This document shows positions 30,734 through 32,057 of a DNA stretch of 64,000 nucleotides, in pieces. Positions within the stretch are counted from its first letter, which is position 1. Each line of letters opens with the position of its first letter. The translations under genes and the position numbers were made by a program. The notes below the pieces were generated by a model. It was not told the DNA's origin, searched no databases, and was given only the letters and a program-made list of their open reading frames with translations. Source of the stretch: Leptolyngbya sp. NIES-2104 (GTDB lineage Bacteria > Cyanobacteriota > Cyanobacteriia > Leptolyngbyales > Leptolyngbyaceae); the NCBI RefSeq assembly GCF_001485215.1, contig NZ_BBWW01000001.1:1736001-1800000 (forward strand). Reading direction: 5' to 3'.

Positions 30734-31486
30734 ATGGGACAGAAGATTAACCCGAATGGATTTCGGCTCGGTGTGATCAAAGAACATCGATCGCGCTGGT
30801 TTGCAGATTCCGATCGTTATCCCGACTTGCTTCAGGAAGACCACAAAATTCGGCATTTCTTCACCAAGAATCCGAGAAATCTGGACAACCTGAAGAAGCC
30901 AGGGATTTCTGAAATCCGCATCGAGCGCAAAGCCGATCAAATTGATTTAGAAATCCGTACCTCACGTCCCGGCGTTGTCGTCGGTCGCGGTGGTGCTGGA
31001 ATCGAAGTGCTAAGAACCAATCTTCAGCAAGCATTGGGAGCCAGCGATCGACAAATCCGCATCAACGTCGTGGAAGTTGCTCGTGTGGATGCCGATGCTG
31101 CGTTGATTGGTGAGTACATTGCTGAACAGCTAGAGCGTCGGGTTTCGTTCCGTCGCGTCGTGCGTCAAGCGATCCAACGCGCTCAACGGGCAGGTATTGA
31201 GGGCATCAAAATCCAAGTGAGCGGTCGTCTGAACGGAGCTGAAATTGCTCGTCCAGAAGCTTCTCGCGAAGGAAGTGTCCCGCTGCACACCTTGAGAGCA
31301 GATATCGATTACGTTTGCACGACTGCCCAAACGATCTACGGAACGTTGGGCATCAAAGTTTGGGTGTTCAAGGGAGAAATCTTACCCGGACAAGAGCGTG
31401 AAGCGGAAGTCGTTGCACCGAATCAACAGCCGCGTCGTCGTCAACAGCGTCGTCAGCGTTTTGAAGATCGATCGAACGAAGGGTAG
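30734..31486 (+). CDS. rpsC: 30S ribosomal protein S3
   Basis: 250 residues. The KH domain motif is [10 protein letters not shown] near residue 82, and the C-terminal domain has [10 protein letters not shown] near residue 165. The C-terminal tail ([11 protein letters not shown]) is longer and more basic than in many bacteria. After this gene the tight spacing of the cluster is broken by a 142-bp insertion of heptamer repeats. Confidence 0.97.
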
Positions 31487-31491
31487 GTAAG

Positions 31492-31606
31492 AAGGTGCGA
31501 GGTGTGAGGTTTGAGGTGTGGGGTGTAAGAGGGCAAGAGAACTTGAAATTTCTTCCCACACCCCGCACCCCACACCCCACACCCCACACCCCACACCCCA
31601 CACCCC
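31492..31606 (+). repeat. Inverted array of heptamer repeats between rpsC and rplP
   Basis: Positions 31492-31526 hold five G-rich heptamers (AAGGTGC, GAGGTGT, GAGGTTT, GAGGTGT, GGGGTGT). After a 31-base spacer, 31558-31606 hold seven C-rich heptamers (ACACCCC, with one GCACCCC). GGGGTGT is the exact complement of ACACCCC, so the two blocks can pair in the mRNA. This matches the type of short tandem heptamer repeats known in cyanobacteria, but its place inside a ribosomal cluster is unusual. Confidence 0.9.
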
Positions 31607-31628
31607 CAAACCTTACAGGTATCGACCA

Positions 31629-32057
31629 ATGTTAAGCCCAAGAAGAACAAAATTCCGTAAGCAGCAGCGCGGTCGGATGAAAGGATTGGCGACACGCGGA
31701 AGTCAACTCAACTTCGGTGACTTCGGCTTACAAGCCCTAGAGCCAACCTGGATCACATCGCGCCAAATTGAAGCCAGCCGTCGTGCGATGACGCGCTATA
31801 TCCGCCGGGGTGGACAAATCTGGATTCGGATTTTCCCCGATAAGCCCGTCACCGCTCGCGCCGCAGAAACCCGGATGGGATCTGGTAAAGGTGCGCCCGA
31901 ATACTGGGTCGCAGTCGTGAAACCTGGTCGGATCATGTTTGAAATCGCTGGAGTGCCCGAAGAGACTGCAAGAGAAGCCATGCGACTCGCACAGTATAAG
32001 CTCCCGATCAAAACCAAATTCATCACCCGTCAGCAAGTCGTTGAGGAGGAATCATAA
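31629..32057 (+). CDS. rplP: 50S ribosomal protein L16
   Basis: 142 residues from the ATG at 31629. The frame stays open upstream to 31518, but that would translate the heptamer array and add a non-L16 N-terminus, so I reject it. [16 protein letters not shown] is the standard start. [18 protein letters not shown] and [10 protein letters not shown] are conserved. L16 sits at the A-site of the large subunit. The ribosome-binding site is weak, which may matter with the hairpin just upstream. Confidence 0.97.

Follow-up and report, generated by a model that had tools for sequence, protein, structure and literature searches.

An inverted heptamer-repeat array between rpsC and rplP of Leptolyngbya sp. 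NIES-2104: a predicted mRNA hairpin that recurs in the genus with differing stems and a possible separator of the two cistrons

The gap between the ribosomal protein genes rpsC and rplP of Leptolyngbya sp. NIES-2104 holds an inverted array of seven-base repeats, which is a member of the broad class of cyanobacterial heptameric tandem repeats in a hairpin-forming arrangement. Relatives keep an array or a hairpin at the same place with other letters, which hints that place and shape may matter more than sequence. Tentatively, and with somewhat less than even confidence, we favour the reading that repeat turnover supplies the sequence and that, in the genus, the hairpin would be kept as an mRNA separator between the two cistrons.

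The window is the whole stretch of DNA that was analysed (64,000 nucleotides), and the features of the gap are collected in Table 1. The flanking genes were identified by Pfam as rpsC (S3_C/KH_2) and rplP (L16), and the rpsC stop codon lies at 31484-31486. Tandem Repeats Finder gave match levels of 85% for the G-rich and 95% for the C-rich array, and these two were the only period-7 rows among its 17 rows for the window. The period-7 score of the gap was 39, a value reached by 0 of 200 shuffles, and the other periods tried scored at most 7. The inverted heptamer array that a sequence-only reading had placed in this 142-bp gap is real, with 4.9 G-rich and 7.4 C-rich units, and its final G unit, GGGGTGT, is, as claimed, exactly complementary to ACACCCC. 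That reading had also put the other rplC-rplO gaps at no more than 50 bp; the sizes agree, the remaining gaps from rplB to rplE measuring 20, 5, 11, 3, 5, 18, 0 and 50 bp and the rest of those between rplC and rplO, as read from the ORF list, also lying below 50 bp. The length it gave for the spacer, 31 bases, has to be corrected to the 28 measured between the arrays. Across 31518-31628 the rplP frame stays open through the C arm, and an annotator could wrongly lengthen rplP by 37 residues. We judged the ORF that runs from GTG 31518 through the C arm in this frame to be a chance extension, because the full-length matches of relatives all begin at ATG 31629.

Table 1. Features in and around the rpsC-rplP gap (positions of the window)
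Feature	Positions	Strand	Basis or remark
rpsC (ribosomal protein S3), upstream cistron	30734..31486	+	ORF list, Pfam
rpsC-rplP intercistronic gap, 142 bp	31487..31628	+	Sequence and ORF positions
G-rich heptamer array, 5' arm, 4.9 units AGGTGTG	31493..31526	+	Tandem Repeats Finder
28-base A/G-rich spacer; the predicted fold has a short inner stem in it	31527..31554	+	Sequence and fold
C-rich heptamer array, 3' arm, 7.4 units CCCACAC	31555..31606	+	Tandem Repeats Finder
Leader AGGTATCGACCA, the 12 bases abutting the rplP ATG, identical in 8/8 genus genomes	31617..31628	+	Genus comparison
rplP (ribosomal protein L16), downstream cistron	31629..32057	+	ORF list, Pfam, matches in relatives

The RNA of the + strand of the gap was predicted to fold at -59.6 kcal/mol (z -5.95), and none of the 200 shuffles folded as well. 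The - strand gave -86.2 kcal/mol (z -9.80), again with 0 of 200 shuffles as good. The strong mRNA hairpin proposed upstream of rplP is thus borne out in prediction. Assignment of the gap to a known structured RNA family was rejected, since the 52 matches found with Rfam 15 up to an E value of 5 were, as far as listed, all under the gathering score and nearly all to hairpin models of the microRNA type.

Within the genus eight genomes were compared (G000-G007). A significant period-7 array was present at the rpsC-rplP gap in six of them, and in seven the gap folded at z < -2, the eighth (G007) having a z of -1.89; the stems differ. The unit at the gap was of the GGGGTGT type in G000 and G004 and of the GGGGAGT type in G002, G005, G006 and G007, and the hairpin of G001 is unrelated to heptamer units. 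The gap of G003 is 261 bp long and carries a large palindromic insert that replaces the heptamer array (z -6.94). The G005 gap also scored at periods 5 and 11 in the first of the two genome sets described below, where these scores were taken without a significance test. The tree of the flanking genes grouped G002 with G005 and G004 with G000 and G003, with no resolved grouping of the remainder. A comparison of this spacer in relatives had been proposed from the sequence alone, and its outcome, a hairpin that recurs in the genus with differing stems, fits a structural role and is no proof of one. Assembly error, raised in the same place as an alternative, is rejected as unsupported, because separate sibling assemblies also bear arrays or hairpins at this gap.

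Within the genus the letters at the gap follow those found elsewhere in the same genome. Pattern matches of the GGGGTGT type numbered 18 in G000, 32 in G004 and 0-1 in the other six genomes; those of the GGGAGT type numbered 30 in G002, 8 in G005, 4 in G006 and 2 each in G007 and G000, with none in G001, G003 and G004. Since these genome-wide counts match the unit at the gap, the local unit in the genus tracks the repeat stock of its genome, for the two units that the comparison covers. The broader rule that the gap unit is always the commonest one of its genome was rejected: it is true in the genus for these two units, and G010, G012 and G037 depart from it outside. The G010 genome holds 326 pattern matches of the GGGGTGT type, 249 of the GGGAGT type and 28 of TGACTCC, and its rpsC-rplP gap bears TGACTCC. 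The sole exact match to TGACTCCTGACTCCTGACTC in the G011 and G027 genomes is the copy in the rpsC-rplP gap.

The complementarity of the arms was examined by permutation over seven genomes (G003 left out), the halves being cut at the predicted apex of each gap. Three of the 5040 permutations, the true pairing included, paired at least as well as the true arms (a fraction of 0.0006), and over four clades the true pairing was the best of 24. Several foreign pairings equalled or beat the own pairing, for example the 5' half of G000 with the 3' half of G004. By this test on sequence, the arms remain complementary across the genus even as their unit changes.

The genus-wide comparison covered four further array gaps. 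The rpoB-rpoC1 gap (contig C1, 2194.7 kb) and the rpoC1-rpoC2 gap (2192.7 kb) hold inverted heptamer arrays in the own genome. At rpoB-rpoC1, z was below -2 in seven of the eight genus genomes (G005, -1.17), and at rpoC1-rpoC2 in six (G002, -0.24; G005, -0.10); the stems were built of heptamers in some of these genomes and unrelated to them in others. At 4785k five siblings have a short gap with no array, and G002 and G005 have arrays. At 1383k the four siblings that could be placed have a short gap with no array (G001, G005 and G002 were unplaced by the script). Some arrays are new gains, because those at 4785k and 1383k face short array-free gaps in siblings. The arrays are thus in part located where siblings carry other hairpins and in part new.

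The own genome (6.39 Mb in 5 contigs) has nine further places of the GGGGTGT type and about 20 of the GGGGAGT type with up to 3 mismatches, the latter a rough count because the pattern read backwards also matched 21 times. The G arm came first in every inverted pair that we read in this genome. A script run over sampled stretches of the own genome and of G020 found the paired array sides G-first in 18 of 18, a count of array sides, not of distinct pairs, with seven of the stretches picked for holding arrays and 4 arrays set aside as simple sequence; the G031 stretches had no pairs, and 56 arrays of the sampled set were single. With genes called crudely as the longest ORFs, 17 of 24 array loci (the rpsC-rplP one included; 896k, three other places and several weak rows of the GGGGAGT type left out) lie between same-direction genes, 1 lies between divergent genes, 4 belong to a longer repeat that they share and 2 fall within ORFs. 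The array-bearing places include rpoB-rpoC1, rpoC1-rpoC2, a gap between two ClpP-family genes and a cas cluster (Pfam). In the last of these, at about 817-819 kb of C1, three array places fall within about 1.5 kb along cas2, a gene for a 23S IVP-like four-helix protein and cas1 (Pfam); it is in itself unusual for cas2 and cas1 to flank a gene of the 23S rRNA-intervening-sequence family. Four hairpins of the GGGGAGT type on C1 (204k, 757k, 1326k and 3375k) lie, by eye, within a longer common repeat that resembles a small mobile element.

The arrays also have a polarity with respect to genes. On the coding strand 16 of 17 intergenic arrays near starts were C-rich and 16 of 22 near stops were G-rich, again on crude longest-ORF calls and after 24 arrays within ORFs and 11 distant from any gene end had been set aside. 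Arrays were found in 2 of 112 same-direction gaps of 60-180 bp of the own genome (33 sampled stretches, 660 kb; crude longest-ORF calls), and are therefore rare in it. Hairpins with z < -2 were predicted in 28 of 95 same-direction gaps of 60-160 bp of this genome, on the same kind of calls. Since hairpins are common in its gaps, arguments from the presence of a hairpin alone are weakened.

Across cyanobacteria, 40 of the 156 extracted rpsC-rplP gaps bear a significant period-7 array. The first set comprised 90 gaps from 95 matching genomes (G016, G042, G066, G074 and G093 left out), and the array was present in 23 of 40 genomes of the own family and in 1 of 50 others. The second set comprised 66 extra genomes from among the matches listed of 211, hand-picked across families; the small-genome family f2 and the bulk of one large genus are absent from it. 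Here the array was present in 11 of 11 genomes of f32, which is probably Nostocaceae, in 3 of 20 of f24, in the single genomes of f34 and f38 and in 0 of the remaining 33. Gaps below 40 bp were counted as array-free by default; in the first set these were 5 from the own family and 26 from elsewhere, and the second set had 18. The significance of other periods was computed in the second set, the first having scores only; of the 48 gaps tested there, 16 were significant at period 7 and none at periods 5, 6, 8, 9 or 10.

The 40 array-bearing gaps together hold 55 arrays made of 34 units, counted with rotations and strands merged and with some units one base apart. Arrays in the 3' half of the gap were C-rich in 32 cases, G-rich in 2 and even in 2, and those in the 5' half were G-rich in 15 and C-rich in 4. 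Outside the genus, a z below -2 was reached in 9 of the 27 tested gaps of the own family and in 3 of the 11 gaps of f32. Pairing is therefore not general, and a hairpin general to the own family is unsupported.

In the reading that we prefer, the gap is presumably co-transcribed. Turnover of the repeat, by slippage and by copying between the arms or from other loci, would supply and rewrite the letters, and in the genus selection would keep the hairpin, which sits downstream of the rpsC stop and upstream of the conserved rplP leader. There it would act as an mRNA separator that slows 3' decay of the upstream part and holds the rplP start region apart. In favour of this, seven of the eight genus gaps have z < -2 despite stems that are of the GGGGTGT type, of the GGGGAGT type or unrelated, and hairpins with differing stems are also predicted at rpoB-rpoC1 and rpoC1-rpoC2. 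Arrays are rare in the own genome (2/112), yet they occur at rpsC-rplP in 6/8 of the genus, and the own-arm pairing, the match between unit and stock and the location of 17 of the 24 loci between same-direction genes point the same way. Against it, hairpins are common in the own genome, pairing is weaker outside the genus, some arrays are newly gained and foreign arms can pair strongly.

In a second reading, slippage and template switching make a neutral or selfish repeat grow wherever a transcribed gap is dispensable for translational coupling. Within this operon the rpsC-rplP gap would then be the one where growth is tolerated, and inverted copying would yield the hairpin as a by-product. 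We hold this close rival to be nearly as likely as a separator, because z < -2 is reached in just 9 of 27 family gaps, the f32 gaps mostly fold poorly and the long gaps of Nostocales mostly bear arrays. The last point comes from named genomes, of which 21 (L125-L145) of the 80 named loci were used, L128, L138, L140, L141 and L143 seeming to duplicate genomes of the G set. The rpsC-rplP array was present in 14 of the 21, including species of Nostoc, Stenomitos, Dolichospermum and Okeania. In seven named Nostocales, 26 of the 28 rplB-rplE gaps of at least 60 bp bear arrays, and in all 21 named genomes 41 of 59 do so. An array peculiar to the rpsC-rplP gap can thus be rejected, since most long operon gaps of the named Nostocales bear one. 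L134 has an array in rpsQ-rplN and L139 in rpmC-rpsQ, both of which are short gaps in most other named genomes. Neutral growth is also consistent with the many arrays elsewhere that pair poorly, with the new arrays in gaps that are short in siblings and with the agreement, in the genus, between the unit at the gap and the repeat stock of the whole genome. It fits less well with arm complementarity that is kept in the genus while units change, and with the heptamer-free siblings G001 and G003, which still have a hairpin at rpsC-rplP. Gaps of the ribosomal operon, moreover, exceed random same-direction gaps: five f32 genomes had arrays in 16 of 54 random same-direction gaps of 60-180 bp (crude longest-ORF calls), and the comparison of 26/28 with 16/54 is a guide only, because the sets are different, related genomes.

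The other explanations fare much worse. It is highly improbable that the element acts as a G-quadruplex, with quadruplexes of the G-rich strand retarding RNA polymerase or replication. Quadruplex formation in vitro is described for related G-rich heptamers in the available parts of Rehm et al. 2015 (PMC4692102), and the C arm on the - strand, taken alone, was predicted to form one (-40.3). The G arm of the + strand alone gave none in prediction, however, and with quadruplexes allowed the full gap remained a hairpin on both strands at unchanged energies (-59.6 and -86.2), so that in prediction it prefers the hairpin; other genomes have, besides, many units here that are not rich in G. More doubtful still is the idea that a mobile miniature element inserted here recently. 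The four own-genome hairpins of the GGGGAGT type within a longer common repeat and the palindromic insert of G003 speak for it, but by eye the rpsC-rplP copy lacks the flanks of the longer repeat, and one insertion is insufficient because six of the eight genus genomes have arrays here with different units. Least credible of all is a transcription attenuator or terminator between rpsC and rplP, such as the sequence-only reading had allowed for, since the stem is strong and GC-rich but is followed by no T-run on its 3' side, and 31300-31700 holds 0 terminator-like and 0 promoter-like sites. The hairpin is not an intrinsic terminator, an element made of a GC-rich stem and then a T-run, and a separator would act by other means than intrinsic termination.

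A wider reading, which we regard as unlikely, is that heptad arrays or other hairpins serve in many cyanobacteria as sequence-free mRNA separators at fixed, uncoupled boundaries of core operons, with site, period and polarity kept and the letters rewritten. The boundaries would be rplB-rpsS, rpsS-rplV, rpsC-rplP, rplX-rplE, rpoB-rpoC1 and rpoC1-rpoC2. If it were true, such separators would give the long-unexplained heptamer repeats a use. If the rpsC-rplP element is functional, it would be a separator that escapes ordinary motif searches for want of conserved letters. Lying in an essential operon, at a gap where many relatives have an array or hairpin of another sequence, it provides a clean natural experiment on what selection acts upon: the structure, the period or neither.

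The array shares with the broad class of cyanobacterial heptameric tandem repeats a tandem seven-base unit, dispersed copies and intergenic polarity; the link drawn from sequence alone to these repeats holds in period, in dispersal and in polarity to genes. REP and REPIN sequences are intergenic inverted repeats scattered over a genome and may be part of mRNAs; REPs are short, imperfectly palindromic and associated with a dedicated transposase. Both they and the present elements are dispersed intergenic inverted repeats, but the arms here are tandem heptamers, not short imperfect palindromes. Going by the title of a 1997 paper by Vioque, STRR sequences reportedly occur in the RNase P RNA gene of heterocyst-forming cyanobacteria; like the arrays here these would be short cyanobacterial tandem repeats, there inside an expressed RNA gene. 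In a literature search limited in journals and in entries listed, none of the titles or abstract openings listed dealt with heptamer arrays in the rpsC-rplP gap, which is no proof of their being unpublished.

The closest description of dispersed copies is that of Rehm et al. 2015 (PMC4692102), whose available sections report G-rich heptameric repeats in Xanthomonas and Nostoc that are dispersed and lie for the most part between genes, the coding strand being C-rich in those ahead of starts and G-rich in those behind stops. In the same sections, convergent inverted pairs are given for Xanthomonas (70 and 75 cases) and are few in Nostoc, the gene context is often common to two species with the length differing, and the discussion leaves the role of the repeats open. 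The rpsC-rplP arrays are like these in being seven-base tandem repeats, dispersed and mostly intergenic with the same polarity to genes. The units in those sections are GGGAATC and GGGGA(C/T)T, and the unit here, GGGGTGT or GAGGTGT, falls outside the narrow GGGNATC type of that paper. Replacement of the motif at one gap across genera, as seen here, is unreported in the sections of Rehm et al. 2015 (PMC4692102) that were available. A parallel for it is found in the trnL intron of Nostoc, where, according to the accessible portion of Kaasalainen et al. 2015 (PMC4476775), the P6b stem is made of complementary seven-base motifs and one motif class has repeatedly been swapped for another with the structure remaining similar. 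Both cases have a stem in RNA that is built of heptamers, with motifs swapped and the shape kept; in that portion the P6b stem belongs to an intron RNA and has two motif classes, whereas here the site is a gap between protein genes and 34 units occur over many genera.
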